Source: Romanomermis culicivorax (taxonomy: Eukaryota > Nematoda > Enoplea > Mermithida > Mermithidae). Taken from it: a stretch of DNA of 64,000 bases. Each line of letters opens with the position of its first letter. Within the stretch, counting starts at the first letter, position 1. Both the position numbers and the translations under genes were made by a program. The notes beneath the pieces were generated by a model, which saw nothing but the letters and a program-made list of their open reading frames with translations, was not told where the DNA came from and ran no database searches. The stretch covers positions 62,001-126,000 of the forward strand of contig CAWUHX010000017.1 in the NCBI GenBank assembly GCA_963922205.1, read 5' to 3'. Positions 16,785-41,016 of the stretch are shown here, piece after piece.

Positions 16785-18660
16785 GGATGACGACCGACCA
16801 GTGTTTTTTGTTTGTGCACGCTCGGACATTTGTGCCGATTGGCACAAAGGTCCAAAAAAATTTGTGCCAATGGCTCGAAAAAAATTTTTTCACCCCAAAA
16901 CCATACTGAAAACATTTAAAAAGTTTTATGCCAAAAGTTTGATAAAATTAAGATATTTTTACCACAAAGAATGGCAGACAGTGTTTTTTTTTTGTGCCAA
17001 AACATGGTTTTTGGCACAAAAAAATTTGGAATGGCACAAAAAATTTTGAGCGTTTGTGCCAATTGGCACAAATTTTTTGGCAGGTCCGTCAAACATTAAA
17101 TTTCCTTGATTTTTAGACGTTTTAGGGGCTGAAAATGCAAAAAATTTTCGGCGCTCCGCGCCGAATCAATGAATATAATATTTCCTATTCGTATATTTGA
17201 CCCAAACGGGAACGATTTCTCTTTGAACAGTGTATTAGTATCGTTGCAGCAAACTTTATAGGCTGTCAAGACTGATGAGTGAAAAGAAATTCTGAATATT
17301 CTCTCTTCATTCAGTCAGATTCGGATTTAAAACTGAAATTGTGTGTTTGATTGATGATTCAAATAGAAAAATCGATGTCGTTGATAATGGCACAATGTTT
17401 CGATCGAAAATTAACACGATTTTCGACTTTATTTTCTCTAGTCTTTACATGGTTGTTAAATACACATAACATAGATATTCGTTCGTAGTCGAAAATTGAA
17501 TCAATTTGAACTTCCTGAACAATTCTAGAGCTATGTAAATTGTTTCAGCATTCCATTTCTTTTTGGGATTTCGTGAACTATTTTGTTGCACAGTTTTTTC
17601 TCTTCTCACTGACATGGTTAGCTGAGAAATAGGTTGGGCACAATTTTTACAAAAAATTAATGCATTAAACAATAACTTTTTATCAAACTTTTGGCCTAAA
17701 ACTTTTCCACAGTTTTCAGTATGTCTCTAGTGAAAAAAATTTTTTTGTGCCATTGGCACAAATTTTTTTGGCCTCTTGTGCCAATTGGCACAAATGTCCG
17801 TGCACAAAAAAAAAAAAACGCTGGACAGAGCACTAGCATCGATTTGATTGGTCGAAAAAATCCCATCCCATCATCAATTTCATCTCATTCATCCTTCATT
17901 TCAATTCATTTCAATTTCGTTGAAACTATTTACTGCGTTAATTTGATTGGTCGAAAAAATGTTTCCTGCATCTTAAGTCTTAACCGCAAATTAAATTATT
18001 TTCAATATTTTCCATTTTATAACGCATAGGAATGCATCTCTGGGCAGAAGACACTGTAACCTAATTATAACGGCCGTCAGGCTCCAGGTTGCACTGTGCA
18101 ATTTGACACAGAAAATTTGGTTGTACAGCCCGAAATTTGGTTGCTGTGTGCAAAAAAAACCTGCATTTCGGTTCCCAGTACGACCACTGAATGAACAGAG
18201 GAAGTCAAGAATTGCTATTCATTCATCGGTAATGGACAAGGTCAAGCTATAGCTGCAGTGATACAAATATACCATTCGAAGGTAATTCGCTGTCGTTCGA
18301 GGCAAATCTCGGCGCGCAGCGCCGAAAGAATTTTGCGCTTTCAACCCCTAGGCTAAAATCACTAAAAATCAAGGAAATTTTGCCCTAGATCAGCGAAAAA
18401 ATTTGTGCCAATTGGCACAAAAGCTCAAAATTTTTTATGCCATTCCAAATTCTTTTGTGTCAAAAACCATGTTTTGACACAAAAAAACACTGATGACGAC
18501 GCCATGTTTTTGTTTGCATTGCAACGGTTTTTTTTGTGCATGGACGTTTGTGCCAATATTGGCACAAAGGGCCAAAAAATTGTCAATGGCACAAAAAAAA
18601 TTTTTACCCTAAAAACACACTGAAAATCTTCAAAAAGTTTTAAGCCAAAAGTTTGATAAA
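16785..18660. mobile_element. Interleaved cluster of hAT-like ends with TTTGTGCCAATTGGCACAAA palindromes
   Basis: Two kinds of ends occur. Type 1 (CAGTGTTTTTTG..GTGCACG) starts at 16799, ends inverted at about 17824, and recurs directly at about 18495-18660. Type 2 (CAGTGTTTTTTTTTTGTGCC..ACATGG) starts at 16978 and ends inverted at about 18492. The pairs interlock instead of nesting. The sequence ATGACGAC flanks the first left end (16787-16794) and follows the type-2 right end (18493-18500). The 20-bp palindrome or near copies lie at 16829, 17053, 17776, 18402 and 18547. No transposase is seen. Open frames here are palindrome artefacts. Confidence 0.7.
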
Positions 18661-19155
18661 AATATAGAAACTAATGATACTTTCCTCCGCACCGCACTGA
18701 TTTGCATAAAAATCAGGCCTACCTTAATTTTATCCAACCACGTCAGTGGTATAAGAAAAACTGATCGAAGAAAACGGTTTCGATTCGAAAAGAAATCGAA
18801 TGCTGCAAGAATTCAGATTATTATAGAATTTGTCAGCAAGTTTATAGGTACTTTTCTTTAATTTTCGGCTATGTATTTCCTTCTAGCAACGATGTAAAGA
18901 TTAAATCAGATAATGTCTATAATTCCTTTTTCCTGAATAAACCTAGGTCAAAAGTTGCGTGAACTTTTGGTCCAAGAATTCTGATAACAGTGACCAATGT
19001 CAAATTTTCTCTTTGAATCAACTTTCAGTTCCCAATCGCACTGAATGAGAGAACTTCTATTCATACATCAGTCATTGCCAATCTCAACGTTTGTTGCGAA
19101 TAGAATTCGCCCGCGTTCAAGACAAATAAAAGTAGTTAATAGGACTCATTGACAT
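18661..19155. other. No gene seen
   Basis: AT-rich spacer between the CAGTG cluster and the LINE fragment. Stretches similar to 17220-17340 and 23020-23130 (GATCGAAGAAAACGGTTTCG-like) suggest old repeat DNA. Confidence 0.5.
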
Positions 19156-19202
19156 GTGAATTTATCAATTTTATATCATGGATATAAAATTGATAAATTC
19201 AC
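19156..19202. repeat. Perfect 22-bp hairpin at the 5' edge of the LINE fragment
   Basis: The 22-bp arms 19156-19177 and 19181-19202 are perfectly complementary with a 3-nt loop (ATG). The right arm overlaps the codons of the reverse-transcriptase fragment, so the left arm looks like an inverted copy of the LINE's own sequence made at truncation. Confidence 0.85.
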
Positions 19203-19467
19203 AATGAATTGGATTTGTGACTTCCTTACAAATAGAACTCAATGTGTAAAACTAAGTAATACCATTTCTGCTCCAACTCCAATAATGAGTGGTGTTCCTC
19301 AAGGAAGTGTGTTAGGTCCAACATTGTTCCTGATATTTATAAATGATCTGAGTGATATAATTAAAAGTTATCTCTATCTATTTGCAGATGATGCTAAAAT
19401 ATTTAATGATGCGTGTAATACAGTATTAATCCAGGAAGATTTAAACAGTTTCTATAAATGCTCTGAG

Positions 19468-19667
19468 CAGGGCTTTTTTTTCCGTACCGATCGATCCATA
19501 CCGTACGGAAATCCAGTGAAAAAATTTCCGTACCGCCTAACTTATTTCCGTATGGCGCAAAAATAGTTAAGTTAGTTAAAAAATAGTTCCGTACCGTACG
19601 GAAATTCCTATAAAATTTTTCCGTACCACCTGAAAAAAATCCGTACTGTACGGAAAAAAAACCCCTG
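19468..19667. mobile_element. 200-bp hAT-like MITE inside the LINE RT
   Basis: Ends CAGGGCTTTTTTTTCCGTAC and the inverse of CAGGGGTTTTTTTTCCGTAC, one mismatch in 20. The perfect 8-bp duplication GCTCTGAG is at 19460-19467 and 19668-19675. The subterminal word is CCGTACCGTACGG. Insert plus one duplication is 208 bp (+1 frame), exactly the frame difference between the RT halves on either side. Confidence 0.95.
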
Positions 19668-20270
19668 GCTCTGAGGAATGGCAACCTAGTACGTCATTGC
19701 CTAAATGTGCAGTCTTACATTTTGGGAAAAATAATCCATCAAATCGGTACACAATTAGTGAATGTGATCTTGATGCTGTCACTGAAATGAAGGATCTTGG
19801 TGTTTATGTTGATGAAAAACTCAGTATTGTTCCGCAGTGTGATTACATGATCAAGAAGACTTCTGGGCTATCAAATCTAATTTTTAAATGTTTCAACTCA
19901 AATATAAATGAATTAAAAATCAGGGCATTTAAAACTTATGTTTGCCCAATCCTTGAGAATGGTAGTCCTATTTGGAATCCTTCTCTAATGGGTGAAATAC
20001 AAAGGGTAGAGAAAGTTCGGAGGTGGTTCACAAAATGATTATATGGCTTTAACTCTAGGAACTATCAAGAAAGATTGGAGTCCGCCAGTCTGCATTCTCT
20101 TGAATTTAGGAGAACTATAACTGATTTATGCTATGTTTATTCTATAATCTGTAACAGCATTTTAGACTCAGATAATTTTTTTGTATACAGTAATTTTAAC
20201 TATCGTATTAACAACCCATATAAATTATATAAGACAAAATTTCGTATGCGATTACTTGAAAAAGATTTTT

Positions 20271-20545
20271 GTAATTTGGAAGAGCATCTACAGCGCTGCG
20301 CCCGAAGCTCTTCCAAATGTTTCGGCGTGGCCACTGCCAATTTTGGCGTGGCCACCATCATCTGTAAAAACTCCCATAGTCCTTGTCACTACAGAAAAAT
20401 TCTACCTACTTCAAGAATCGAATCTGGTCCACCAGCCTATGGACTCAATGCATTTACCACTACACAATTTCACCAGAAAGTATAAACACTATATTCCTTC
20501 AAGACCCTTGATACTATTTCACCTAACAACTTCATTTGGAAGAGC
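20271..20545. repeat. Small repeat with TTTGGAAGAGC arms
   Basis: TTTGGAAGAGC occurs at 20275-20285, inverted at 20308-20318 and direct at 20535-20545. It marks a possible short insertion at the 3' edge of the LINE. The segment between has no assignable product. Confidence 0.45.
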
Positions 20546-20599
20546 CTGAGCAGCTGCTGTACCCTAAGGCTATGAGCCTATGGAAAATTTTAAAGGAAA

Positions 20600-22220
20600 A
20601 ATAAATGTATACTCACTAGTCACAGAAATCCATGCTCAAAATTAAAAAACAACTCATTACAATAATTAGGCTGAAGGCTGGGAACTGACTTATAAAATTT
20701 AGCCGATGTCCGCTCAATTGGGTGCAGGGTTGGCGGGCATTGGGTTTTTATGTTGATGAGTTTTTTGGGTTGGAAAATTGGGAATTCCTGGGTTTTTGGC
20801 AGGGTTTTCTTGCAATTTCGTTCCAATTGCGTCAGTTTTAGGCTTTTAAAACCCAATTTTTGTTTCGAAGAGAAAATAGAAAGGTTTGTATGAGTAACGT
20901 GTTCGGCGCGTAGCGCCGAAAATTTTTTGGGGACTTATTCTAGATTGCTGGAAAATGAATCTTTTCAACTTTTAATTCCAAGACTGTAGGTTTAATTTTT
21001 TAGCGAATTCAATGAATTTTCAGTTGACAGACCACAATTCAAAAACTAGAGGAAAGCAACCAATAATTTCCATTCTTTAACCAGCAAGATCTTCTACTTG
21101 GACTCAAAATGTTCTAATCATACAAATGTCAAAATGTTTTTGAAGGTCGCAAAAAATTTTTGGGAAATAACTGAGAAAAATCCTGCTTTCCGTTAAATTC
21201 GCCAAAAAACAACTCAAGATCAAACATTTATCCATGATATGTTGATAATTAAAATTTATAAGTATTAGCTAGGATCACATTTTCTAACCCTGCACTGGAA
21301 TAATACAGAAAATTTATTAAATAATTTAAATCCGGCGTGAAGTGTCAGAAGATTTTCACTATTTTTCATTTTATAACGCATAAAAATGCATCTCCGGAGA
21401 GTAAACCCTATAACCTAATCAAAAGGGCAGTCAGGCTTCAAGTTACACTGTGCAACTTGACAGAAAAAATTTGGTTGCAGAGCCCGAAATTTGGTTGTTG
21501 CGTGCAAAAAAAACTCTGATTTTTGAGGTTTTTAAGTAAAAAATTCATTTTTTCCATTTTGTTCTCAAGAATACAAATTTCTATCTGATTTAACAATGAA
21601 TTGAGAGTTGAGCCAACTGTAGTATATGCAATGCAGTCTCTTCTGACGCTGACATGACAACAGATTTGAGATGAGATTACACAACACAACAAAAAAAATC
21701 AAATGCCTCATGAATTTTCAATTCAGGAAACTTTTAGCCCTATTCGATTTGGTTCGTACGAGGGTTCTGTTGAGTTGGGTTATTCTAGTCTAAAAGCTAA
21801 AGTTTCGTATTTGATAAATTTAACTTGTGTTTGAATTGTTTTTTGGCTGATTCTTTTTTTTTGGCTGAAGTTGATGGTAGCTTATCTGAATATTAGGCGG
21901 ATTTTACTGCTGATTAGCAGTGCTAGTGAGCAATACACAGCATTACTTGTAACGGCTAAAATTTTTATCATACCTATACTACTCACAGTCATCAGCAGCT
22001 AGTGAGGTGACTTAAGCAGCATTAAAATTACGAGGAAGACGGCAGACCTCCTGGAGAGAGAGGCAGCTGGCAACTTTTAGGGTACAAAACTGGGATAAAA
22101 TTAAAGATTTTGACATTTTTCGGGGGCAGCAGGCAGCTAAGTCTAGGGGTGAAATGAGAACCCCCTAACATCCCCATTCAGTGCCCCGAAGTGTGCTGGT
22201 TGAGTGGCCGTAAGCAGTAT
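20600..22220. other. No host gene seen; old repeat DNA
   Basis: AT-rich sequence with one GGCGC core palindrome (20904-20918) and a segment (21330-21510) resembling 17980-18160 (CATTTTATAACGCATARRAATGCATCTC). Nothing coding could be supported. Confidence 0.5.
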
Positions 22221-22222
22221 GA

Positions 22223-22640
22223 ATGTTGAAGGAAGATCAAACTTTCTTCAGCCTGCAAAATGACAATTTACAAAAACTCATCTTGGCAAGTGAAGATAGT
22301 GAAAAAAATACGTTTCATTACAAAATGGTGGATAGTGGTCAAAAATGTGCCATGCAATATTGGTTGACTGAAGGCAAAACATGGCCTTCATTGCAAAAAA
22401 TTGCCTTGAGAGAGAGTACGTTTTTTAAGACTAATATTGATGGGCACAATTTATTTTGTCATGTTATAATCAGGTGTTTTCCTTGGTGGTGTCCACTGCA
22501 TCATCGGAGCGTAATTTTTCAATCTTTGGCTTTGTTCACTCACCAATTTGCTTAATCGATTGCCATCTGCATCAGTCGAAAAACTACTCTTCATAAAATT
22601 CAATGCTAACAATTTTGTCAACGGTGTAGAGGTGGATGAT
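22223..22640 (+). pseudogene. hAT-family transposase C-terminus, broken
   Basis: Reads WLTEGKTWPSLQKIALR, then after an intron-like gap (about 22417-22473) the hAT dimerisation signature SSERNFSIFGFVHS (from about 22501). After a frameshift near 22545 it continues NRLPSASVEKLLFIKFNANN. The SSERNFS..FGF.HS..RNRL pattern is diagnostic of hAT C-terminal dimerisation regions. A GC-rich end with TGCACGGCCCTG (ends 22714) may be its right terminus. The left terminus was not found. It is not functional as read. Confidence 0.75.
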
Positions 22641-23309
22641 TTTATATGTTACGATCAGTAATTATGGGGAGGGGGCGGGCACCCCCCCCCCCGCCACCCT
22701 TGTGCACGGCCCTGATCCTGGATAACGAGTAAAGTCATCAAAGAAATGCAACTAAAATTCAATAATCAGGCAAACAACCGAAAATTTGGATTCTGCAACC
22801 AGCAAGGATTATTAAAATCCGTTTAAAATGCAACAAAATGCGTGTTGTTGACCTCGAATCCCCAAAGAATTTTGCATTATTTGGTAAAAGAGCCCAAGAT
22901 TTTTTTTGCCAGAAATACCGATTTGCCAAAAAACAAACAATGCTTGTAAGCAGCGCTTTTTTGTGCACGGATATTTGTGCCAATGGGCACTTCACTCTAT
23001 TTTTCATCCAATCACGTCAGTGAGATTAGAAAAACTGCGCGAGAAAACAGTTTGCAATTCAAAAAGAAATGAAATACTGCTAGAATTCAAATATCTGGAA
23101 AGAATTGTTCAGAAAGTTTGTGTTTTCCTTCAATTTTGGCTGCAAGTATCTTTCGAACTACGATGTACTGATCAAAAGAAAGGAGCAGAAGAATAAAAAA
23201 GAGACAGAAAAAGAAATAAAATCAAAAAACTGGGACGAAAAGTAAGAATGAAGAAGAACGACAAAAAAATTAATTAGGAAATGAAGCCTGCCGAACTGTA
23301 TATTACATA

Positions 23310-24057
23310 CAGGGTGAGCCAAAAAAAGGCGGGCGGTATTGACCGTCATAGCTTTCAAATGAGTGAAGCCTTTTCAATGCGGTTTCCTGCCGTCGATAGA
23401 CAAAACATCTGACATAAAGACTGCAAAGTTTCAGCCAGATTGCTCGAATATTGACTGACTAGAATCAGAAAGACGATTTTTTTGTAAATAAATATTCAAA
23501 AAATTGACAAAATCAACATGTTTTGCAGCAGAAAAGTACAATATAGGTCCAATCATAAGAACCACAGCTGAAAACTACAAGGGAGCCGTTTCAGTGTGTC
23601 CTACTTTCTGTTCCACCAATAATTTTAATCGTTTTCCTATCTGATCAATGATAGAATTGATTTCGTTTCGATTCTGCTATTTTTTCAGTTCCAAAACAAA
23701 TGTTCTTGATTTTGGCGAAATTTTGCCCATATTGATACAGGAAGTTTAGGATTTTAAATTGAAGGAAATTACGAATCTGGGTAATTTTTAAAGTATTATT
23801 TTGTGTAAACAGCTTTACAAAATTCTTTTCATAGTATGACAACCTTTACTATGATTTCACAACTTTTACTTTTTCAAAAATGACCCTTTTTACGAAATTT
23901 ATGTTTGTACAAAAATAATAAACGCTAGGAGCATAAAGCTTGACCCTTATAATGAAGACAAACAGGAGATTCTAATGCAGCAATCCGCACAAAAAAAGCT
24001 TCATACATTCGAAAGTTATGCAAGTCAGCATTGGTCGCCTTTTTTAGCTCACCCCAT
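23310..24057. mobile_element. Mariner-like non-autonomous element
   Basis: Left end CAGGGTGAGCCAAAAAAAGG; right end is the inverse of TGGGGTGAGCTAAAAAAGG. TA flanks both (23308-23309, 24058-24059). Inverted similarity extends for about 75 bp (CATARCTTTCRAATG then TGAAGC). No transposase frame is visible in the 0.75-kb interior. Confidence 0.75.
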
Positions 24058-24132
24058 TATATCATCAATAATTTGACGCAAAAGAAATATAAATTCACAG
24101 CATTTGATTTTAGAATAATTAAATGTAATAAT

Positions 24133-24245
24133 TAGAGATGCAATGGATCCAAGATTTTTAGTCTTCCGGATCCAGGTAATCAACTTACCTCGATCCAATT
24201 CCGGATCTGGGTAATTGAAAATGAGTTTCACGGATCCGGGTGATC
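24133..24245. repeat. Left-type end with GGATCC words
   Basis: Starts TAGAGATGCAATGGATCC and carries GATCCGGGT/GATCCAGG words. The same style is seen at 26215-26364 (ending GGCCCATCCCTA) and at 54652-55878. I could not confirm that 24133 and 26364 are two ends of one element because the flanking octamers differ. Confidence 0.45.
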
Positions 24246-25259
24246 AGGCCGAGTCGTCGTTGCAACGAAGGTGCAACAATTTGAGAACAAACGCGGTCCG
24301 ACTAGCAACGAGCTCCGAGCGTACAAAAAGAGCTAATGAAATTGAGCCTTTTGTATAAAATTTTATGAAGTGTTTTGTAAATTTGCTGAATAAAAACATT
24401 GTTACCGACCCTTGACATTGGGCTTTACAGTAGGATCGAAAAATCGTGATAGCTCTGCTCGATATACATGTTTGAAAATTAAAAAAAAAAGAGATGTTTG
24501 AAAATCTATCCTTATTTGCTACACTTGAAGCAAGCACAGTTTTCGGATGTTGGTCATCAAATTTAAAGATTTTAATTTTTCAAAAAACAATATATTTATA
24601 CAATAAAACAGTAATATTTTTCACCAAGCTTTCTTTTTTTCGTACATGTGCTTCGTGCGTTGAATCTGAAACAATAGTATATATAAAATATGCAGGATTA
24701 CTGTAGATTGAAGTATAAGGGGACTTCTTATTATGTCATAACATTAGACGAAGCGCCTCTAATACGCCTCTAGTATTCCTCCAGCGCATCTCTAATAAGA
24801 CGCGTGCAAGGCGAGAGAAACCCTCTAATAATCCTCTAATACATCTCTACGCAGCTGTAGCGCACCTCTAATATTCCCTCAATAATGCAACGTTTCCAAC
24901 CTCCACTAAGCTCTAATACACCTGTAGTTTTCCTCCAGTGGATTATTAGTGATGCATTAATTTTGTCCGGTACTGTACAGATCCGGATCCGGGTAGCAAT
25001 AATCTATAATACAGATGCTGTGATTATACAGGCATTTTAATTCATGTGTCTTTAAATGATCCTAACAATTTTCGAAATGTTGTTTGCGATTGGTTATAAT
25101 GAGAATTCATTATTGGATATTATTGGCCTTAAAATCGCATAAAAATGTGAAACACCTTTATTAGAATAACACAATATAACACACAATAATACAGTGGTGA
25201 GCGACGTTTCGGTAGTGTACCTATTTGTACTTTCTTCAAAATCATTCTTGTCATAGTCT

Positions 25260-26010
25260 GATTCTAAACCGTCTAGAAATTCCACCGGCGATATCTCTGT
25301 GATCAGTCAAAGTAAAAAACTATAGACTGCATTTAATTATCTTCATTCTGTTGCGAAGCGCCGGAAAATTTTTTGGGGTTCTATACTCTAGGACGCTGGT
25401 AAATGAATGTTTTCAAGACTTATTCCATGGCTAAGGTTTAATTTTTAAATCCAGAATGATGTTCTGATTTGAGTAATGAGATCATGCTTTCAATCAGCTA
25501 ACCAGCGAGGAAATCGGCTTGAAGCAAACGATGTTTAATAAATTCAGGCGAAACAGCAAGAATGATAAAAAAGTTCCAGCGCAAAGCGCCAAAAATTTCT
25601 ATGGATTTTGATATTACAATGCTGAAAAATGAATTCTGTCAGCAATTATTTCCTGAATAAGCGGTATAATTTGCAGTCAATTAAACCATTTTGCATACGA
25701 GAACAGAATGTAAAAATCATATTGGAAGCACGCAAGTGCAACTCAAAAATCAAACTAGCAACCAAAAATTTAGGTTCTTCAAATTTTGATTTTGGTCAAA
25801 TACCAAGATGAAGATCGTAGATTAAAATAGCAAAAATCATAGACTAAACAATAATGTGAGATATTTTATTTTGTGAAAGAGTCGGCTAGAACAACAGCAT
25901 ACGAACTGCGCTGAAAATCCGTATGTTATGAATATTGACTTCTGCACTCTGCACAAAACGTCCTAAAAACTTTCTGCACGAGCTCCAAAAACTGCTCAGT
26001 GCACAAAAAA
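25260..26010. repeat. Partial copy of the GTGCACGG repeat family
   Basis: The sequence parallels 57110-57680 and 39580-39815: GCGAAGCGCCGG (25353-25364), a shared A+T-rich middle, and the end TGCACTCTGCACAAAACG...GCACGAGCTCCAAAAACTGC. Confidence 0.6.
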
Positions 26011-26364
26011 ATCCTTGTTGAAACTGTTGAAAAACTTGTTTTCGATATTACCAAAAATCAATTTTAAATATTGACTGTTATTATTAAATTAATCAAATAA
26101 ATGTTTGTTACCTTACCTTGTAATGTTACCTTAATGTCCAAATATACTTATAGTCAGAGAGTACACTTCCACTTATAATTAGTATCAGTTATGTCTAAAC
26201 TGCATTTTGAATTATCCGGATCTGGATCCGGCTAGTTGAAATATTTTCTTTCGGATCCGGACCCGGGTAATTGAAAATGCTTCTTCCGCATCCGCGTCGG
26301 GATCCTGAAAATTTTTTACGATCCGGATTGCTATTGTTAAAAAAGTCGATGTGGCCCATCCCTA

Positions 26365-28786: not shown

Positions 28787-28972
28787 ATTCCAATTCAATT
28801 TTCTTGTCTTTCCTGATTTTTCCGCTGGGAATTTTTTTCAAGCATTCCATCCCGTAATGGCGCCCGATAGTTTAATTTTAGCTTTCAAGCCATCTACGAT
28901 AAATTTAGGTATAATACGCAACGTTACTTCCATTCTAGTTCGTAGACGTCACTCAGCAATCTAGCCCATAAC

Positions 28973-29227: not shown

Positions 29228-29783
29228 CGTATAACGTCATCAAAAGAACCTTCAGGCCCTTGATTACACTGCAATTTTACTGTCCGAAATTTGGCTGCTG
29301 TATGCAAAAAAGTTTCACGGCGAAAAAGTCCGTGGGAAAGAAACGGTACTGTACTCCAAATCTGTCTGTTTTGAGGCTAAAATTCAGAAACAGGTAAGAA
29401 ATTTTGGCTGATTCCCAAAATAAGGAATAAAATTTTAGGGTTTCAAGTAAAAAAAGTTGCGTTCTGAAAGGTCAAAATATTGAAACATTTCATCAAGACA
29501 AAGTTTATTTTATTTATCTCAATTTTCAAGATTACACATCACAAAGAGATCGGCCTGTAGTTAGTTGAGACGTGTCTCCCTCCTCAAAGACGAGAATGAC
29601 ATTTGCTTGGTTCCAGAGCGAGAGTAGAGGGCTTATTCAAATATATTTGATGAAGTATATTTGAAGTTTTATCAATGATATTTGGGATAAGACTCTTTTG
29701 AAATCTATCAATTTCAAAGAAACACTTCGTGAACAGTGTTCAGATGAAATGAAAATTTTTTGGGGCAATCGAAATTGAGGCAG

Positions 29784-30729
29784 TCATTTGTACATGTACA
29801 AACGGCTCTTTCTCCATTCAGGGAAGAAAATTTTGGGGATAAGGTACAGAAAATATGCATTTTGGTGCATTTTAAAAGTTCATAATCTCAAAATTATCCG
29901 GCGCTTCGCACCGGTTATAACTTTCATAATCATTATTATGTATTACCTAGCTCAGACGCGGCTTTCAGAATGTCTACCTTCACTTATCATTTAATGTATA
30001 ATAGTTTTCATCATCTCAAACATATTACCTCATGTTTTAAGTGGTAATCTTCAATATTTTATGATATTTAATGAAGATTCACAGTTTTTCCTTCAAACAT
30101 TTTTTGAGAAAGATCAACGTCAAGTCTCTAAACTTTTTGAAGCTATTATTCCTTTCTTAACGTAAAATAAATTCGGAAGTTTTCGGAAATTTCTACTCTT
30201 CCACTCATATATTTTCGGCCAAGTTCATGAGAGTTAACGAATAAATTACTGGTTTTAAAATTTTTCAAATAATAAATAATAAAATTCTAAAAATTACGAC
30301 TGTTGAACACAAAATTCCAATCTAATTCTGGAAGTAAATGTTAGGAAAATTGATTTTCCACCGTCGCCGAATGTCAATACACAAGAAATTTTTCCGGCTC
30401 GGGGTTTTCACTTGTCATCATAGAGAGCTTTACCATAGATTTATCATCTAATGCAAATTCATTATGCTATTGGATAGTTTTCTAGAAAATTTGTACCACA
30501 ATACTTGTAAATTAGACTTGAAACTCGAAAATTTCAATTTTTTGCTCAATTTTAATGAATTTTCTTTGTAGTCGTAAATTAAATTTGAAAATTACACTGA
30601 TTCGGTTATTAGTCTTTTTTGACGTAGAGGAACACAGGCTACTTATTTATACTTATTTTTGCTATGTAAAAATGAAATATTGGCTCCCGTTTGTACATGT
30701 GCAAATGGGTCATGTACAAAAAAACGCTG
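29784..30729. mobile_element. Element with TTTGTACATGTACAAA word and CAGCGTTTTTTTGTAC right end
   Basis: The right end (inverse of CAGCGTTTTTTTGTACATG) is at 30729. The left side has CAGTCATTTGTACATGTAC at 29781-29799 and seems to lack the T-run. The word TTTGTACATGTACAAA (29787-29802) pairs with GTTTGTACATGTGCAAA (30689-30705). It contains the module GCATTTTGGTGCATTTT..CCGGCGCTTCGCACCGG (29865-29914). No target duplication was found. Confidence 0.6.
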
Positions 30730-32155
30730 TTCGTAAATAAACTTATGTGTAAAATTTAAAGGATGTTTCGAGAAAGGCTTTTGTAACTTTTATACCTGGC
30801 GTAATTGTATGTTCGGCTTGACAACATGTTACGGCTTCAGATTTTGAGACAATCAACTTATGGTATAGTCGACTAAGTTTTCGTTATGCTGCTTTTGCTT
30901 ATCGAGCTTTTCTGCTCATCCATCCACGTACGCGTATGTGCACACATCTAACCTTTCCAACTTTCCTACCCCCTCTCCTTTCGTCGGTTCAGAGAGACTA
31001 AAACTATATGTATTCGGAAAGAATCTTGTCGTTACTAAAAAATCTCCACTCCATTCCTGCCAATGGCCGTCTCTTTCAGGTGTGTGCGCATACAGACACA
31101 GAAACGTATTTATCGAACCGCTGCATTACATTCTGACAAGGCGGAGATGATGGGGTGCGCTGCATTATCAAAACGTAGCTTTATATATGCTTTCACTTTC
31201 TCTGCGGTTTTTAATGAGCTTCCGCTTCCAGCGTACAACTCATGTAACGGGGATTCAGGCCTTTTTAGGCGTGTTTTAGGCATTTTCTCCATCTACCCCG
31301 GATTGTTATTATTCCCGTACATTCGCTAGAGATAATGTCATCGATTCTTTTTGCCTTGCTGCGTTCGCCTATGGATAGGTATGGGTTTATTTTATACATC
31401 TACTGTCGGAAAGAATAATACCCTCAAGAAAAATTTTCTACACTGTTCTCTGATAATGATGGGTGTTGTAGTGTATATCTTGTGTCCGTAGACGTTTTTC
31501 ACATACCACGATGTTCATTGCACGTTTTTCCGAATTATATCTTCATCTTATTGGATCCGGCCTCATTCTTGATTCCCGACTACCATCATCATCGTATCTC
31601 AAATATAATTCATTCTAATATCAGCAACGTGCGTGTGTGTGAATGTTTTTATCAATCTAATATTCATTCTTCTCCTTTTGCTCTCTTTTTTGCTCGTGAT
31701 CGATTGCAATATCTAAACCTAAGATTTAACTCGAGCACGGTTTTAACTTCTTAACCTGTAGTTTAGCTACACTTGACGCATGGTTTATTTTTTTAGCACG
31801 AGTCCTATTAGCAGTCGTGCCAATAAAAAATATATTTCTTTGTTGGTCTTAAACTAATGTGTGAGTTTGTCGATTCTAATAATCTGCTTTTATTGTATTA
31901 TCGATTCATGAAATCATGCTTGATGTTGGTACTTTCAGAAAAAATTTGAACGAAAAGGAAAGAATTTAGGATGAATTTTTTTATTTTGTCGAAGTTATGG
32001 AATAAATTTAGAAAATGACGATTTTTGATATTTTATCACAATTTGTCGACGTCTTTGATCTGATTTTCTTACCGAACTTTTCTTAAAAATTTTGCACTTC
32101 CAGTCATTAGCGCGGTGCAAGAAAAGAAAAATGTATTATCCTATATATATTTCTC
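30730..32155. other. No supported gene; pyrimidine-rich spacer
   Basis: The region 30920-31760 is less AT-rich and CT-rich (CTTTCCTACCCCCTCTCC at 30959-30976), with frames open up to 88 codons but no protein motifs. It could hold an untranslated exon or promoter of a downstream gene, which I cannot show. Confidence 0.3.
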
Positions 32156-32792
32156 TTGACGGGTAGTGTTCGTTACCGCGACACGCCCGTTACCGCTGCC
32201 TTTTTGTTCGATTCATAACCGCGACAGGCCCATAACCGATACCAAAAAAATTTCGTGTTCATAAAAGGAATCAATACATAAAAATTGAAAATTGAGGTGA
32301 GTGCTTGCAGGATGATTTTTTGACTCGTGTCTTGTGCACATGACGGAAAATACTTCAATAAAGTATGAAACCTTAGTGCCACGGAAAACTGAATATGTAA
32401 TTAGATACACACAGGAAGCACGATAAAGCAACGCTATCACACATCAAGATTTTGAAAAAATTGAAGTCCTCAAATTCAGCTTGAAAGCAATTTTTTTCTA
32501 GGTGGATACAGAAACCCTCTTTCGCTTCATCTGATACAGCATGTCTTGATCTATGAGAGGAAGCAGTTTCATCCATTTGGGGATGAATCCCATCAAGTTA
32601 ATTCTTTCCAAAGTTGCCGATTTATTATTGTCCGTTGAGGGGCCTTTAGACATGGTGTCAAACATCGAACTCCTACTCCACAAATATTTCACGCAAGATG
32701 CTAATATTTCACAGGTGTTCATTTGAGACATGGGGGATCCTTCATACAAAATTTTAGCTAAATCTGGGAGGGTCGTGCAGGAACCCCTTGAT

Positions 32793-33189
32793 CATACATG
32801 TAATTGGGGGGAAGTGCTATGGGAACCCCCCCCCCGGGATTTTCCAATCCTATGGCTAGCCATATGGTAGCCCTAGGGACCCCCATAGTTTTAGCCGAAA
32901 AAATACTGAAAAATGTCATTTTTTCCATGAAAAGTGTCAATTTTTGAACAAAAAATGGTCAAAAACGTCAATTTTCTCGACACTTCGCGCCATAAGTACA
33001 TATTTTATCATTTTTTAGACAAAAATTACTACTTTTTAAACCGTTTTTCGAACATTTTTCATGGAAAAAATCGAATTTTTTTCCTTCAAGGACCCCTCCC
33101 CCCAAAATTTTGGGAATTACTGACCCCCGGCCCCAAAAAAGTGCTCCAACCCCCCCCCCCCCAGACCTCGGAGCTCCGTTACATGTATG
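32793..33189. mobile_element. hAT-like MITE, CATACATGTAA family, copy 1
   Basis: The 397-bp element has inverted ends CATACATGTAA and TTACATGTATG and a perfect 8-bp duplication CCCTTGAT at 32785-32792 and 33190-33197. C-runs and GGGACCCC words lie near both ends, and GCGCC sits in the middle. Confidence 0.95.
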
Positions 33190-33451
33190 CCCTTGATCAC
33201 TTGACATGGAATGACCCTTCACAAATACCGGGTCACTATGGACAACGGGGATGTAACGTAGTTTTTGAGCAAGAAAAACTTTGCCACTTCTATAACTTTT
33301 TGCTCAATACCCTGTTTTATCACAGTCTACCCTTCAAAAATCTTACATTATTTACTAATTTATTTTTCCATTGTCCCTTCCTCTGCTTATTTTTACACAA
33401 TATGTGAGCATGTCAAAATCAAAAATGTAGTGGTAATAATCCTGTCGCGGT

Positions 33452-35063
33452 TAGTGATGGACCGATGCATCGGCATCGGCCGATTGTTGCGTTTTTCTGC
33501 CATCGGCCATCGGCCGATGTTTTGACAAATAATCGGCCGATGGCCGATTGTTTGGCAACTTTTTGTTACAATGAATGCATATGCTTATGCTTAAAAACGG
33601 ATTCTTCACATATATATTTTACAGTTACTTTAGTGAATACATAATTTTTTTGTGGAAATGGTTGTTTTAATGTCTGGCATATTTGCCCTGTATTGCCATT
33701 GATGAACTAAATAACAAGAATTTGACACGCTATGAATGGGATATTTTAGCTACGGCAGTAAGAACATACGAACATACTTTAATACATGTATAATCTATCA
33801 ACACCTTAGATAATTATGTTTTGGCAGCTTGTAAATTTGTTAAAATCTTGTGCAGAAACTGTAAAAATCTATGAATCTAATATTTCAGAAGAAATAGCTG
33901 AAGAAAAGTAAGCTAGATTTTGTGCCTAAATTTTTTTGAAAAACATAAATTAAGGAATCTTAGATTAGGAATTTTATGCCACTCAATCCATATTTCAACT
34001 TTCATGGATTGGGTTCATTAAAGGAGGAATTGTCGGGAAAAATGAATCAATATTTTTATAGAAATGATAATCGAGCCCACTTTAAACTCATTGAAGACAA
34101 TAGACTTCATGCTTTGGCATCTTTACTAGTTCCTTGATTTAAAAAGGATGGATTGAAATTTGAAATATAACACATATTGATCATACAAATCAAAATTAAA
34201 TAATTTAGGCTTTCTGTGATCCTCAAGCAGAAGACAAAGCTGAACTAGCTTTGGTTAGAATGATTGTCGATCAAAAACAACAAAATCAACGCTTTTCTGA
34301 AAATATGGTTCAAAAATTTGAATGAATCTTCAATCTCATTCTCCAAACTTTCTCAGTAAGCCACAATTAATACTAATGTAAATAATTCAAGCATTTACGC
34401 AAAACTGACCAATTTCAGGCACTATTTGGCCATTGCAAGTTCATCTGAAGATGAGCTGTAGCCCAAAAAATATGCAATGTCAGCATTTGAGCAAGCAAAA
34501 GACATTGTTTTGGAATAGATTACTAGAATAATGGAAGAAAAATGCTGCAACAAAACCAGAATTAGCTAATGTGAGTCACAATAGTATGCAGTTGAAAATA
34601 TATTTCATTATGGAAAAAATTTCTTTAGCTTGCCATGAAATTTTTATCAGCTCCAATTGGGTCAGTAGCTAGTGTATGATCATTTTAAAAAGCAAAAGAT
34701 GCTAGAAGTGGAAAAAGATCCCGCTTATTGCTGAGATTGGATTCAATAGTGCAAACTGGAAAAACAAGCTGAAGTTGAAGAAGCTTCTAGTGAACTCAGT
34801 AATCAAAGTGAAGGTAGTACAACAGATGCCTTTGTTGATGACAAATTGGATGAATGAAATGTTGTTAATTATTGAATGTTGGAAATATCAGTAGAACTTG
34901 GTGAATAATTCATAATAATTTTAAATTTATTACAGTGTAGCAACTTCAGGTTGCATTTTGTACATGTTACAGCCGATGCATCGGCAATCGGCCATCGGCC
35001 GATGCGTCGGCCGATGCATCGGCATCGGCCGATGGCAAATTTTTGGCCATCGGTCCATCACTA
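33452..35063. mobile_element. hAT element with degraded transposase
   Basis: The 1612-bp element has ends TAGTGATGGACCGATG and CATCGGTCCATCACTA (perfect over 16) and a perfect duplication GTCGCGGT at 33444-33451 and 35064-35071. Both ends reiterate CATCGGCCGATG. Inside on the + strand are hAT transposase remnants: HALASLL.P.FKKDGF (about 34108-34155, with a stop), AFCDPQAEDKAELALVRMI (about 34209-34265) and LAMKFLSAPIGSVAS (about 34628-34672) followed by stop-broken KAKDARSGKRSRLL. Several stops show it is inactive. Confidence 0.92.
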
Positions 35064-35071
35064 GTCGCGGT

Positions 35072-37116
35072 ATATACTGTATATAACATGTCCTATGATC
35101 AAGAATATATTCCGGTCGCTGTAATGAACCCAGTATCGGTTATGAGCCTATCGTCGTAACGATCCCCAATCATATTTGATTAGCATTTATAGTTTTGCTT
35201 TTTAACACTGGAAATCATATGAAACTCCTACCACCGTAGCCAGTCTTTTCACGAACAAATAATGGCAAACATCGGTTGCGAACAATGGACATAGAAAGCA
35301 TACAGGAGTTCAGACTTAGTCTACTACCTCACCTTCCAGATTTAAGTTTTCCATTACCTTAAAACCGAGCTCGAGTTTCAAAAAATACCATTTTTCATTG
35401 CAACAGAAACTGACGAGTTCGCGTTCAGCTCGATGGTCGTGGTTCATCGCGCGAAACCTAAGCTAAATTTACTGTTGATATTGCAACCGGCCCTTGGACG
35501 TTAACATTTTTTCCAAAGTATATCATCGTGGTATGTGTGTGCTTTTGAATTTGTATAGCACTGCTTTCTAACGCTTATCAGCAAAAAAGTTAATATTGGG
35601 TGTCTTACCACTACTACAATTGGAGCCAAATCTGGTTTTACATTGCCGGGAAGAAGTTAATCTTTATTTCGTTCGGGCTGTTGTACAGAAAATTGAAAAA
35701 TGACCTTGTCATTTAACATAGTCTGTTTTCCTTGAACGCTTGTACATAATATTACTGGAAAGCAAGTACTATTTCATGTTTTTACAATTTTTTGCTTATG
35801 TCAAATAGGACTGAAAATTTTTAAGCACACACAACTAGCCTTTAAGTTTTTTTGAGTAAATATTCTACAGTAAAAGCTTCGTACAGTAAAAGTAAAAGCT
35901 TCAAAATCATTGTAAACGATTTGACGACAATATTGATTTTTGCCATTTTTAAATTTTTAAAGTTTTCTCTTTTTTCCGTGATACCGATTTGAAATGTTTT
36001 CCCTACGCTGTTTTCATTTCTCTTACATTGCTTCTCGAGTAGTCCTGCTCAAATTGAACACGATTGTTTTAGCAATATGTAGGAAAAACTCATGAAAATT
36101 TATCATAGTTTTATGCGAGCTCAGATTGCTGCATCTGTAATGACATAATGAAGTGATGAGTTGAGAACGGTCAGTCTCTCATTCGTAGAACTGATGGATA
36201 TGAAACGAGGAAATATCAGTTTTTATTCCACTACATTATGCGTAACGTGTGAGGGCAAGTTAAGAAGAACTTTAATGAAAAAAGGATGTGTAATTCCATT
36301 CAAAATTTGATGTATTTGGATCAAGTCCCATTTTTCTACGTGTAATTTAATCATTGATCCTCAAGTATTGCTTTTTGATCAAGATTCTGTTAAAATTGGG
36401 CTGTCAAAATGTCTTGAGGTTCAACTTTGCAACAGAAAATTAGTGCTGTCTTTTTGCTGATGTTGATATTCAAAAGCTAGTGCACATTGCCGTGAAAGAG
36501 TGAAGAATAAAAAAATCATTTTCGCTGTTTTGGTACACACGACAGTGACCATGATGAAGTGATTAAAATTTCACGTGAAATGATAAAAGGCACGAACAAC
36601 AAATATACATTTCAAAGACGTTAAATTCGGAATTGTATCGGCCGTATGATGAGGTCGATTTGTCGTTCTCGGGCACTGCTTTAAAAGACCGTGATGAGGA
36701 ATTTTCAAATTCATAAGTGTCAGCTGACCAATGTACAATGCCCGAATAGCGACGTCATAATTCTCGAATCAGAGATATTTCCATTTTTGATATTTTTCTG
36801 AACTTTCCAGAATGAAAAATAGAGTCTGCTGATCGTGTCGGGGCTAGATTTGCTTTTTTGTCATAGTTTGATGGGCCACTAATCTGTCGAAATTTAACCT
36901 CGAAAAAAATAGAAAAATTATCGGGAAAAATTTTGATCTCTAATGTCAGAAAAATTTTGATCTCTAATGTCTATTTAAGACGTCATCTCAAGAAATTTCT
37001 GATCTAGAAATGACTATTTTCGATCAAAAATTGGATATTTTCAGTCATTTCTTTCGGGCAGGAATGTTATCAACAATAAGATTAACGAAGTCTGACAGAG
37101 TGTAGCTGGTTTTTAG
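35072..37116. other. No host gene seen; includes partial TA-MITE
   Basis: Positions 35726-35955 match one half of the TA-MITE family (TAGTCTGTTTTCC..TGGAAAGCAAGTACTATTTC). The remainder has no supported coding sequence. Confidence 0.5.
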
Positions 37117-39815
37117 TGCATTGCGTGGTGTGCACGGTGCACAAATTGGGTCAAAACATACATGTAATTAGGGGGAAGTGCTAGGGGAACCACCGCCCAG
37201 AAATCGTCGATCATATGGCTAGCCATTGGGCGACCCCCTCTCCAGGATTTTCCAATCCTATGGCTAGCCATATGGTAGCCGTAGGGACCCCCATACTTTT
37301 GGTCGGGAAAATACTGAAAATGTCTTGTCGAAAACGTCAATTTTCTCGGCGCCTCGCGCCATGAATAGATCTTTTTCTGTCTTTTTAGAAAAAGATTACT
37401 ATTTTTTAACTATTTTTCGAACTTTTTCCGTGAAAAAATCGATTTTTTTCCTTCGGAGACCTCTCCCCCCAAAAAAAATTTGCGAATTACTAACCTCCGG
37501 CCTGAAAAAAGTGGCCCGATGCCCCCAGACCTCGGAGCCCTATTACATGTATGGGTCAAAAAGTTAATGCACTGTGAGAAAAAAATCTGGACATTCCTTT
37601 GGGAATTCATTTGATGCTGTTTCACAAGTACATGGCTGTCGCCGACATTTGAATGCGAGGCTGCGAGACTGTAAATTGTACTAACATATGCTGCTTTAAA
37701 ATAATTTCACATTTCTCTGCGACATCTGAAAATATATCAAAGATTCAGCCCTAATATGAATACCAACAATGAGTACATGTAACAACGCAAACAATGATAA
37801 AGATGTGTCAGAAGCAGGGATTTTTAGGTCAATTTGGAGCCATCGATTCTAAAAGTTCTGATTGGCTCCTAAAAATTTAGGGACACAAGCCAAATTGGCT
37901 TGTAAAAATGAGAGCCTAACCATCCTTTCTGATTAAGTTATAGGGCTTCTTGTGCGGTGATGCATTTTTATGCATTTTGAAATGAAAAATACGGAAAATT
38001 TTCCGGCGCTAGGCGCCGGATTTTAATTCATTCATGATAATGGATATCATTTCTGTTGTGCGGTTAGAATATGTCATCCTAGCTTATGCTTATGGCTTTC
38101 AGAAACCAGCATGTTATGGATGAATGTTTGACCTCGTGTTGTTTTTTCCACGTATTTGACAAAAATCAAGATGTTTTTACAAAATCGTTTTGCGGCGCTT
38201 TAGAATTTTTGGCTTTGGTGAACATAACTTTTTTCATTTGGAAAATGATTAAAATATCATGAGAATGGGAAAATAGCAGAGATTCTTGCTATCTGAAGAA
38301 GCCATTGAGATTCATTGTTGCTGACCTAATTTTGGAATTTTAGTTTGCCCCACTGAAAACATATTGAATTCACTGAAAAAATAGACCTTCATGCTGGAAA
38401 AAGATATTAAAGGTATTCATTTTCCAATGCTATGGAATATCATAATCTAAAATTTTCTTTCAGTGGTTAGCGCCTGAGGTATTCAAGTCCGAAGTAAAAT
38501 ACCTGTCGCGCTTTTTTATGTTATAGCTCGTCTGAAAACAATCACTTTTGATGAATAATTGTGATTGCTAAATTACTGGCTCCGGATATATAAGATCCAA
38601 AATGGAGGTAAAATGTTTGACCTTTTCCGCTAACGAAATGGTGAAAAGATCGGTCATCGGCAGTTGCAGTAGAATGTGCTGAAAGAATGCATTTTCCGAC
38701 ATTTTAGAGGCCTCGAAATAAAAATTGTTCAGCGCTAGGCACCGATCAAGTTACTCTAGTCAGACTTTTGATTTCTCACCTAAAACTCAAGAAATTCAAC
38801 TTTAAAAGTCACGAACTTACGCGAAGTGAATGAAATGCATGGGAAGTAACTTTTAATCATTTTTCTGATGAAACTAAGCGAATTTATCAATTTTAGAGTG
38901 AGCAACTAAAAATTAATCTGTGCAACCAAATTTTTCCCCAAGTTACAGATCAACCTGGCTTGTGCGGATAATCCCTGATGATTGATTTGAATAATGACTG
39001 ATCTAATTTGTGAGCCTTATTATTCTGTGTGTGATTAAGAATGTATCCAAAATGATTGATCTGTTATGTGGGCTTCTACCGTGATTTTGAAGAGTGTTTT
39101 TGACTAAATTTGTTGGAAAAAAAACATTTTTTTTACCACCACATTTATTTACAAACTTTTTAGTTTTGGCTTGTTGAAATTCCTGTTGGGCTGTAAAATT
39201 TTGACCATAGGAGCCAAATGGCCTATCGAGAAAAAATAAAAAACCTTGGTCAGAAGAAAGACTAGTGTTATCATCCTTGACTGCTAAAAACCCCGAAAAA
39301 ACCCGAACTTTTCGGATCACAAAATATGTATAGAATATTAACAAAAAACCATTTTATTAAATGCAAATGATGTTAAAACACTATTTTTTCGTACTGATTT
39401 TTTTGCGGTTAGACGAAAGAGGTCAAATTTTTTTCGCCATTTTCGCTGAAAAATACTCACACATGCCTTATTTATACTTTTTTGAGCTAATTGGAACATC
39501 TTTATGCCTGTGCAGCCGCTAATTTACCAAAAATGAAGACAAACAAAATTTTCGAGTTTAAGATCGCATCAATAATCACGCGAAGCGCCGAAAATTTCTA
39601 TGAATTTTGATATTAGAGGAAAATGTATTTTGCCTTGATAAACGGTCTAATTTTGCAGTCAATTAAATCGTCTTCCATACAAGAACAAAATGTAAAAATC
39701 ATATTGAAAGTATGCAACTTGAAAACCTGCATGATATGAAAATCGACTTTTGCACCGTGCACAAAGCGCACTACAAATTTGTGCACGAGCTGCAAAAACT
39801 GCTCTCGGTGCACAA
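37117..39815. mobile_element. Long member of the GTGCACGG repeat family
   Basis: The left part (GTGGTGTGCACGGTGCACAAA from 37127) parallels 56431 onward; the right part (TTTTGCACCGTGCACAAAGC..TGTGCACGAGCTGC, to about 39815) parallels 57600-57680. It shares unique interior with the 56.5-57.7 kb copy (TACCAACRATGAGTACATGT). A 397-bp MITE is inserted at 37157. Core palindrome CCGGCGCTAGGCGCCGG at 38003-38019. No transposase was recognised. Ends are approximate. Confidence 0.6.
37157..37553. mobile_element. hAT-like MITE, CATACATGTAA family, copy 2
   Basis: The 397-bp element has ends CATACATGTAA and TTACATGTATG and a perfect duplication GGTCAAAA at 37149-37156 and 37554-37561. The related repeat at 56431-56500 has the same surroundings with a single GGTCAAAA (56461-56468) and no insert, so it serves as an empty site. 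Confidence 0.97.
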
Positions 39816-40776
39816 AAAGCCTGTATTGTAGCTGTCCGAAGATTTTTAAGCGTCTTTAGGCTTTGAAATCGTAGCTATTCTAGATTCGTAAAAACATTTA
39901 TAATGACATGCAAGGAATACCTCGTGTCTAATGAAAGAATGAATCACTTTTTTATACAAACAGGCTTTTTTAGTCAATTTTAAAGGCCTGGGCCCCCAAA
40001 TATTTGGAAATGGCTCCTAAAACTTCAGGTAAGAGCTATTTCAGCTCTTAAATTTAGCCTTATTTGTTTATATTTTAGTGAATTATAGTCATTTTCATTC
40101 AATTTTAGTTTTAAAGTAAGTGTTTTACAGGCTTCGGCGCTACGCGCCGAATCGCATTTTATAATTTTTCGGATTATTTTAGTCTATCCACCGTTTTTCT
40201 ACAAATCAAACTTTTTGGGGGAAAAAATTTTTCGACCAAGAGAAAAAATGAGGGGGTTCGACAAGGAAAAGATCAGTTTTAGTGCATTTAAGAGGTCGAA
40301 ATCTCAATTTTTTCATTTTTTTGTAACTATAATTTTAAATAAGGAGCCAGTTCGAATTCATAATCATAATAGAGGTGATTTTCATAAATTTCATGTTTAA
40401 TTTGAATTCGTTCCATCAACTTATCCTTAAATTGATTTTTCAGCATTTTAGTGTCAGAATGAAAAAAAAATTCGTTGCTTAGCGCCGGAAAAATTTAAGA
40501 AATAACAGAAGAATAAGAACAGAAGCTGCATTTTCAAGACCCTACACTTTTGTGCCAGAAGGACATGAACTAGAGTGCTATGTTGGAAGAAGGTTTGTTG
40601 AAAAATAAACGAAAATTGTGTTTTTTGCATTAAAAAAATTTTCTTTGCACAAAGATTTCTTGGCCGATCATTGTATGCATGTATAGAAAGAAGTCTGTAA
40701 CCGAAAAACGCTGGTTGAAAATAAAATTTTGAACCGTAATTTTTTTCAACACCTATCAACTGATTCGATATCCATA
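39816..40776. other. No host gene seen
   Basis: Contains the module AGTGCATTTAAGAGGTCGAAATCTC (as pieces at 40280-40306), a core palindrome CGGCGCTACGCGCCG (40135-40149) and a half core at 40481-40490. The longest open frame is on the minus strand over T-run and palindrome repeats and is judged spurious. Confidence 0.5.
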
Positions 40777-41016
40777 CAGTGTTTTTTTTTTTGCACTGTG
40801 CAAAAATTTTTCCGTTCGTGCAAAACTTTTTTTTCAGGTTTTTTGCACCGTGCAAGAAAATATCTATCAATTGTGGAAAAAAATTTGGTGTTTTCATATA
40901 GAAAAGATTCATTTTGGTGCATTTTAGTAGACCCAAATTTCAAAATTTTTCGGCGTGCAAAACTTTTTTGGTGATTTTTTTGCACCGTGCAAAGGAGCTC
41001 GTGCAAAAAAACACTG
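40777..41016. mobile_element. 240-bp hAT-like MITE, CAGTGTTTTTTT end with TTGCACCGTGCAA word
   Basis: Ends CAGTGTTTTTTTTTTTTGCA and GTGCAAAAAAACACTG. Flanking octamers TATCCATA (40769-40776) and TATTCATA (41017-41024) match at 7 of 8. Palindromic words TTGCACTGTGCAA and TTGCACCGTGCAA recur at 40791, 40839 and 40979. It carries the module CATTTTGGTGCATTTTAGTA (40911-40930) followed by a half GGCGTGC core. Confidence 0.85.

Follow-up and report, generated by a model that had tools for sequence, protein, structure and literature searches.

The closest precedent found for the ends of one subfamily enclosing the inside of another is Galileo of Drosophila mojavensis, for which passages of the source describe copies carrying both terminal inverted repeats (TIRs) of one subfamily and the inner part of another, and propose the exchange of end sequences as an origin of new subfamilies (PMC3573991). 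As portrayed in those passages, Galileo is P-element-like, with long, internally repetitive TIRs, 7-bp duplications and exchange between subfamilies of one transposon. In Hermes, according to the part of the source considered, a quasi-palindrome spanning left-end bases 11-27 is bound by two BED domains acting cooperatively, with an AT-rich stretch also required (PMC10368747), and in Herves, the corresponding passages have the transposase binding the short subterminal motif C(G/A)ATTCAT at both ends (PMC3143072). The present analysis concerns a 64,000-nucleotide stretch of the genome of the nematode Romanomermis culicivorax (C17:62001-126000, where C17 is contig CAWUHX010000017.1; hereafter, the window), complemented by genome-wide searches that took in 359 Mb and 595 contigs. 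The window contains related non-autonomous hAT elements whose outer ends, built of a CANNG terminus followed by a T-run and repeated copies of one self-complementary word, are best read as having been repeatedly replaced around conserved inner bodies, a reading assigned a probability of about 0.72.

As in Galileo, the same inner region is encountered under ends of another group, here in elements that share a body. By contrast, the ends considered here are of the hAT type and align weakly or not at all between groups, with old termini layered inside new ones. Given the 8-bp duplications and a hAT transposase relic, the exchange works like that of Galileo but the elements are not Galileo, falling as they do outside the P superfamily. 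As in Hermes, short words are concentrated near the tips, pairing a palindrome with an AT-rich stretch; the Hermes motif given in the part considered is AAGT/AAGC, whereas the present elements have a different word in each family, in many cases a perfect 13-22-bp palindrome. As in Herves, a subterminal motif is found at both ends, and left and right ends are unlike, but the Herves motif is not palindromic and the passages on Herves describe no replacement of words. A conserved body with exchanged ends and words that drift in step is no defining feature of hAT miniature inverted-repeat transposable elements (MITEs) in general, and no description of swapped subterminal words around one hAT body was found among the open-licence papers listed for MITE or hAT end exchange and for subterminal words. 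What is added to the known systems is exchange between weakly or non-aligning ends, layered termini and in-step changes of palindromes, in hAT MITEs.

In what follows, L-numbers are loci fetched from the genome, C263 and C193 are further genomic copies and E1-E5 are elements of the window. The elements and parts of elements on which the comparison draws are listed here by position in the window.

16799-18492, minus strand: E1, outer element of the GTGCC-word family (W1), with an A-type end on the left and a B-type end on the right, paired after L039 and L038
19468-19667, unstranded: E2, the CCGTACnGTACGG (CCGTAC) element, with the perfect 8-bp target-site duplication GCTCTGAG and 10 word matches
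29734-30729, plus strand: E3, the GTAC element, with the duplication TTCGTGAA/TTCGTAAA (7/8) and words at 29787-29802 and near 30690
29804-30561, plus strand: shared body in E3 (best 40 of 6289 candidate places in the genome scored)
29804-29835, plus strand: decayed inner CCCC word (TTTCTCCATTCAGGGAA), read as a relic of an older end
37815-39248, plus strand: E5, the GGAGCC/AAGCCAAATTGGCTT element, with the perfect duplication GTCAGAAG and body type 2
40777-41016, plus strand: E4, the TTTGCACnGTGCAAA (GCAC) element, with the duplication TATCCATA/TATTCATA (7/8)
40875-40955, plus strand: start of the shared body inside E4
41408-41741, plus strand: CCTC-word end (TCTCA and TGAGGAAA), attached to the shared body start in diverged form

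A body of approximately 720 bp was found within three groups of ends, namely, GTACATGTAC (GTAC), TTTCCCC and CTGCAC/GCAC. Four elements were aligned, i.e., window 29734-30729, L009 4294-5833 (after removal of a nested element), L038 796-1803 and L033 2092-3190. These share the body, while their ends differ by word; two of their duplications are perfect and two match at 7/8 positions. L038 796-1803, flanked by the perfect duplication GTTAAAAA and bearing TTTCCCC/GGGGAAA words, has an interior 78% identical to that of the GTAC element of the window, and L033 2196-3103 is 81.5% identical to L038. When aligned segments were scored as z versus shuffled sequence, using shuffles that do not preserve A/T runs, the body segments of all six pairs gave values of 13.4-22.5. 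For the outer ends, the one same-word pair (window/L009) gave z of 13.5 and 16.2, and the different-word pairs gave -1.2 to 3.0, except for the right side of L038/L033 (z 20.0), where L033 retains an old CCCC-type right end and adds 80 bp outside it. The body start of the E4 family scored z 9.4-12.0 against the other bodies. Elements with a body in common thus have the same kind of terminus but different words inside it, such that terminus and body were kept while words changed.

The initial annotation had proposed that the terminus is kept while the word is swapped. As to anatomy, the proposal is largely borne out: it holds for the shared-body elements but does not extend to E2, which resembles the others at the terminus alone, nor to E1, which has a short hairpin module in common with them and an end scaffold alignable with CCCC (z 7.5) but not the ~720-bp body. 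Were each word the mark of an unrelated hAT family, with any likeness reduced to a generic CANNG terminus and low-complexity T-runs, E2 would fit well, as would the several hAT families with their own subterminal words found in this genome (GGATCCGGATCC, GGATATCC, GGAACCG and TAGGTTTTT). Such separate origins are, however, contradicted for the GTAC, CCCC and CTGCAC/GCAC ends by the body they share under different words, making this the least probable of the explanations weighed.

Within groups, the ends tell of a second process. In a further comparison, the two GTAC left ends scored z 15.8 against each other, CCCC left ends scored z 8.8 against CCTC and 7.5 against the GTGCC end of E1, and CTGCAC and GCAC ends scored z 7.9 on the left and 7.2 on the right. 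Pairs drawn from different groups among the three that enclose the shared body (GTAC; CCCC; CTGCAC/GCAC) gave z of -0.1 to 3.3, and with CCTC and GTGCC added, the remaining between-group pairs reached z 4.3. Two simpler schemes were thus rejected: CTGCAC and GCAC are not two independent ends, as these align, and it is not the case that all different-word ends are unalignable, since GTGCC aligns with CCCC as well. The L038 CCCC end can be aligned along its scaffold with the CCTC ends at window 41408 and in L032, while, as judged by eye, the letters of the word are changed in most of its copies. Between CTGCAC ends (L033) and GCAC ends (E4 family), identity is 76-78% when the ends are taken by themselves and 69-71% when the body start is included, and their words (TCTGCACnGTGCAGA and TTTGCACnGTGCAAA, respectively) differ by one letter per arm. 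Within a group (CCCC/CCTC, GCAC/CTGCAC), the scaffold is thus alignable, and the ends are set apart by letter changes that recur from one copy of the word to the next. The same in-place drift seems, by eye, to apply to body type 2, which is common to GGAGCC ends (window 37815, L037) and GTTGCAC ends (window 21518, L003, L004). Words thus change in two ways, either with the outer end being replaced or with letters being altered in step and in place.

It may be asked whether such drift could account for everything, one ancestral element having changed its word letters in step along each line with no end ever being replaced. The alignable CCCC/CCTC, GCAC/CTGCAC and GTGCC/CCCC ends, the weakly positive scores of other pairs, the 76-78% identity of GCAC and CTGCAC ends and the similar palindrome-to-tip distances on several ends would all be expected. 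Nevertheless, drift alone is unlikely, given that GTAC and CCCC outer ends score no better than shuffled sequence, left or right (z -1.2 to 0.3), and that two cases are known in which a new end encloses an old terminus.

In the first of these cases, CCCC inside CTGCAC, the right side of L033 presents a CCCC-type end up to a terminal CAGTG at 3110, followed by 80 bp with CTGCAC words and the present terminus at 3190, where the duplication GTTTTGAG/GTTTTGGG is found. The GTAC ends of the window and of L009 likewise retain a decayed inner CCCC word adjoining the body. The left flanks of 12 body copies were fetched, all from the best 40 of the 6289 places scored in the genome search with the E3 body, a search that favours the window's own subfamily. 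Eleven of the 12 flanks were GTAC-type, several with a word mismatch or a decayed tip, and the twelfth (C263) was GCAC-type; the inner CCCC-like relic was seen in 10 of the 11 GTAC-type flanks, with L051 lacking it.

The second case, GTAC inside GCAC, is provided by the composites C263 and C193. In both, a GCAC left end is followed by a first part of the body (E3 coordinates 111/112-385) and then by a second body, which begins at E3 125/129; next come a GTAC-type right end, a short spacer and a GCAC right end. The inner GTAC-type right end is complete to ATGTACAAAAAAACCCTG in C263 and is shorter and altered in C193, the left tip of which lies outside the fetched stretch. L041 and L042 are shorter than the composites and keep GTACAAAAAAACCCTG or the like inside the GCAC end; the 240-bp E4 is without it and is read as a further deletion. 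New ends would accordingly be gained mainly by the nesting or fusion of two elements, followed by internal deletion; this is the best-supported route, as each composite contains a pair of bodies along with right ends of two generations. A possible alternative route is recombination at shared A/T runs or at the body.

These layers also speak to where the body came from. Had the body itself been mobile or repeated, it could have entered several unrelated hAT MITEs independently, and both its abundance (6289 candidate places, of which the best 40 were scored) and the recurrence of its short hairpin part in many contexts lend this some appeal. No termini or duplications belonging to the body were, however, visible by eye at its boundaries, and the body was rejected as a separate inserted element. 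Moreover, CCCC-type end relics adjoin the body in GTAC elements and in L033, such that an older set of ends was already attached to it. Independent capture is thus considered quite improbable.

Another concern is that the mosaics stem from misassembled repeats, or that insertions overlapped by accident and were never mobile as one element. Nested insertions are indeed common (window 16799-18492; L009 5255-5736; L038 796-1803 inside a W1 element), and L055 and L060, two of the 11 GTAC-type flanks above, share flanking DNA and represent one insertion seen twice. E4, however, is a real family, a short, non-coding MITE with many similar copies: the 240-bp element has at least 42 aligned stretches genome-wide (best 40 of 1558 candidates scored), and its near full-length copies, the query excluded, are 86-94% identical. 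The GCAC left end together with the body start was present in 9/9 fetched E4 relatives at separate places, with duplications that are perfect in five (L041, L043-L046) and match 7/8 in two (L042, L047), the right ends of L048 and L049 lying outside the fetched stretches. E3, L009, L038 and L033 each have duplications as well. An artefact, contradicted for the GCAC and GTAC types and facing just one copy each of the L038 and L033 versions, is therefore very unlikely overall. The preferred reading thus remains that of outer ends replaced around a conserved body.

The palindromic words named in the initial annotation are confirmed to be real and to lie in hAT-type MITEs with CANNG termini and, in most cases, 8-bp target duplications. 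TTGCACnGTGCAA was found at 40791, 40843 and 40980, as well as at 18089 inside another element, CCGTACnGTACGG at 19589 and within 19640-19654, and TTTGTACATGTACAAA at 29787. For TTTGTGCCAATTGGCACAAA, the positions given were exact at 17053 and 18402, yet only the inner 18 bases are present at 17776, and a mismatch (CCGATT) is present at 16829; related palindromes at 17744-17762 and 18547-18568 had been overlooked. The T-run described in the initial annotation needs two corrections: it has been lost from the left end of the GTAC element of the window (CAGTGTTCAG), and it is not wholly a border of its own, since part of it forms the palindrome's outer arm. When 13 ends were scanned for palindromes, these were found at 11-30 in three ends, at 24-43 in four and at 31-48 in one, with three ends having palindromes only at 58-94 and two (E2 left, E3 right) having none.

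Three words were counted genome-wide, with the same pattern read backwards serving as control. TTTGTGCCAATTGGCACAAA gave 2426 exact sites (control, 0), TTTGTACATGTACAAA gave 850 (control, 1) and TTTGCACnGTGCAAA gave 1196 (control, 0), all three being far in excess of chance. That words group with distinct elements was borne out by a word scan of the window and 24 loci and by a table of 36 ends or whole elements. In the scan, word-dense stretches near hAT termini were each dominated by one word, while looser clusters elsewhere were mixed. In the table, the labelled word was the commonest in nearly all rows, exceptions being L002 (one CCCC match, one other) and the left end of L030 (its own word once, another once), and both ends carried the same word in all 12 elements for which both were tabulated.

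MITEs of the hAT type generally have CANNG termini and 8-bp duplications and arise as internal-deletion derivatives. In agreement with this, perfect 8-bp duplications flank window 19468-19667 and 37815-39248, the nested and outer elements of L009, L038 796-1803, L041 and L043-L046, and duplications matching at 7/8 positions flank the window elements at 29734 and 40777 together with L033, L039, L042 and L047; L048, L049 and C193, whose stretches miss one end, were left out of this check. Short TIRs of the CANNG type are seen as CAGTG, CACTG, CAGGG and CAGCG ends, with some old copies deviating at one tip (L009 outer right, CAGGT; L041 left, CAGTT; L039 right, CAGTT; C263 left, TAGTG). The target-site bias of hAT elements follows the consensus nTnnnnAn, and both positions fit in 9/16 duplications, as counted by eye and without a control.

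A de novo scan for terminus, TIR and 8-bp duplication returned eight elements as compared to a null mean of 2.6 (largest, 8) and, with a stricter TIR cut, three elements as compared to a null mean of 0.27 (largest, 1). A second scan of this kind gave five elements, with six nulls giving 0-2. Without a TIR filter, 35 candidates were obtained as compared to 49, 37 and 37 in the nulls, such that the total was no richer than the null. From the de novo scans, only those candidates with shared subterminal words or other support were retained; E5, found by a scan not clearly above the null, was accepted because its words match at both ends.

As the T-run with its palindrome resembles the end of Hermes, the words are most simply taken as putative binding sites of a transposase BED domain. 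A new outer end would then bring a body under another transposase, each word might answer to a different transposase, as the initial annotation suggested, and words might drift in step if one changing protein has to be matched by every site of an end. It is tentatively proposed, at slightly less than even odds, that MITEs change masters, with successive transposases driving one body, each through a new outer end, with the youngest layer outside and with words drifting in step between changes. If so, one parasite body may be moved by successive different enzymes, which bears on how a MITE line survives the death of its transposase; it is common for MITEs to be more numerous than the transposons responsible for their movement. 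The old termini preserved within new ends would give a readable order of events from which a switch of transposase could be dated and tested, and in-step word changes would offer natural pairs for studying change in BED-domain specificity.

A transposase relic was found in W1. L039 285-2837, with a GTGCC left end, an A-type right end and the duplication ATCAGAAT/ACCAGAAT, contains a degraded hAT dimerisation domain sharing 54% with that of L034 over 50 aa. This locus came from stretches with two GTGCC words 1.7-2.9 kb apart, of which three were fetched, one having the relic. Window 21520-22660 is ~77% identical at the DNA level to the relic-bearing stretch of L039. In a genome search with PF05699 (hAT dimerisation), the best 150 of 1837 candidates were scored and 13 were fetched; among these 13, sought as the transposase of the T-run families, those with readable ends (some read by eye; L025, L026/L027, L028/L029, L030, L033, L034, L035 and L036, with L031, L032 and L037 being unreadable) have other termini and other words. 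These words are GGATCCGGATCC arrays (L026 646-3730, L033 590-2074), GGATATCC (L028, L029), GGAACCG (L030) and TAGGTTTTTT (L034), and the duplications are perfect in L025, L026, L029, L030, L034, L035 and L036 and 7/8 in L033. The transposases of L001 1602-2864 (CAGGGTTGGCA, TGGGTTTTT) and L034 506-1841 (CA[AG]GGCTGG, TAGGTTTTT) are related (59% over 97 columns); with similar termini but different words, this pair is a parallel among transposase-bearing elements.

Several points weigh against end replacement or narrow it. The segment borders used for the z comparisons were set after the alignment was seen, and most ends were compared without their outermost 12-14 bases. Several between-group pairs beat nearly all shuffles (GTAC-E3/GCAC, z 3.2; CCCC/CTGCAC, z 3.3); such weak scores could arise because the shuffles do not keep A/T runs, yet distant common descent of the ends of different groups is possible. 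Since GCAC ends can be aligned with CTGCAC ends, the two make up a single group. The full-body CCCC and CTGCAC versions are each represented by one locus (L038 and L033, respectively), L002 having a partial CCCC copy, and E2 gave no match to the other elements beyond the terminus and lacks their body. Among the elements examined, none of the GTAC, GCAC, CCCC, CTGCAC or CCGTAC type showed a transposase. Stray single or double matches of another word appear in several of the 36 tabulated rows, the left end of L009 is mixed, with one GTAC and one CCCC match, and word purity is partly by construction, since these elements also supplied the words that were scanned for. Finally, no target duplication was found at the C263 composite, no inner duplication was matched in either composite, and both C263 and C193 are without the left end of the inner GTAC element, such that nesting, as opposed to recombination, is the probable route rather than a proven one.

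The remaining features of the window are as follows.

16979-17823, plus strand: inner W1 element nested in the outer one, with a B-type left end and an A-type right end
17053-17072, unstranded: word TTTGTGCCAATTGGCACAAA, others being at 16829-16848 (1 mismatch), 17744-17762, 17776-17793, 18402-18421 and 18547-18568
18521-18842, plus strand: third A-type W1 end fragment
21299-21518, minus strand: end with the GTTGCAC word and a CAGAG-T-run terminus at 21518, joined to body type 2
21520-22660, plus strand: hAT transposase relic, with its dimerisation part at 22277-22631
22951-23118, plus strand: A-type W1 end fragment

The outer W1 element is flanked by ATGACGAC at 16787-16794 and 18493-18500, with an extra CGAC at 16795-16798 on the left, while the flanks of the inner element (ATGGCAGA/GACAGAGC) differ, revealing no target duplication. 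L038 303-798 and 1828-2191 align to window 16979-17465 and 17475-17814, respectively. Pairing the ends at 16799 and 16979 as A with A and B with B was rejected, since L038 and L039 show unlike A and B ends in one family, and pairing the relic at 22277 with the end at 22951 was rejected on orientation. In two W1 elements, a second copy of the final 3-4 bases of the duplication directly precedes the element, namely, ATGACGAC-CGAC-CAGTG (window 16787-16799) and CTTTGATG-ATG-CAGTG (L038 292-303). W1 elements are also found head to tail, with ~7-8 bp between B end and A end (L004 583-604, L040 486-506), as if insertion favoured existing duplications.

Elsewhere, the window is animal-like and eukaryotic, with a PDE2-like exon at 62455-62877 and a reverse transcriptase fragment at 19153-19566; E2 sits between two open frames of a non-LTR retroelement. 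Window 55175-55502 is 70% identical at the DNA level to the transposase-bearing part of L026 (2817-3163) and is probably a second relic. Among transposase-bearing hAT elements, GGATCCGGATCC words occur in L026 646-3730, L027, L033 590-2074 and L037, and in L026 and L033 the word stands at both ends behind two termini (TAGGGATGGGCC, TAGAGATGAA), i.e., the same word with a different terminus. L025 354-4249 is a hAT element with an 864-aa open frame and the perfect duplication AACCTCTT, and L009 5255-5736 is a small hAT element (duplication CCTAAACG, word CTTTGTACnnGTACAAAG) nested ~100 bp from the end of the GTAC element.

A hairpin, CGGCGCnnnGCGCCG, with at most one arm mismatch and a variable 3-base loop, recurs in many different elements, often 3' of AAAATTTT. 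It was counted 21 times in ~276 kb, with five of these copies in 200 kb of chosen stretches, its sites including window 17149, 20904, 27582, 29899, 38004, 40135 and others, as well as L001-L018. Related 15/31-bp tandem arrays (ATTCGCTGTATTGAG) are present in both orientations at window 7841-8057, 8796-8944 and 13446-13612.

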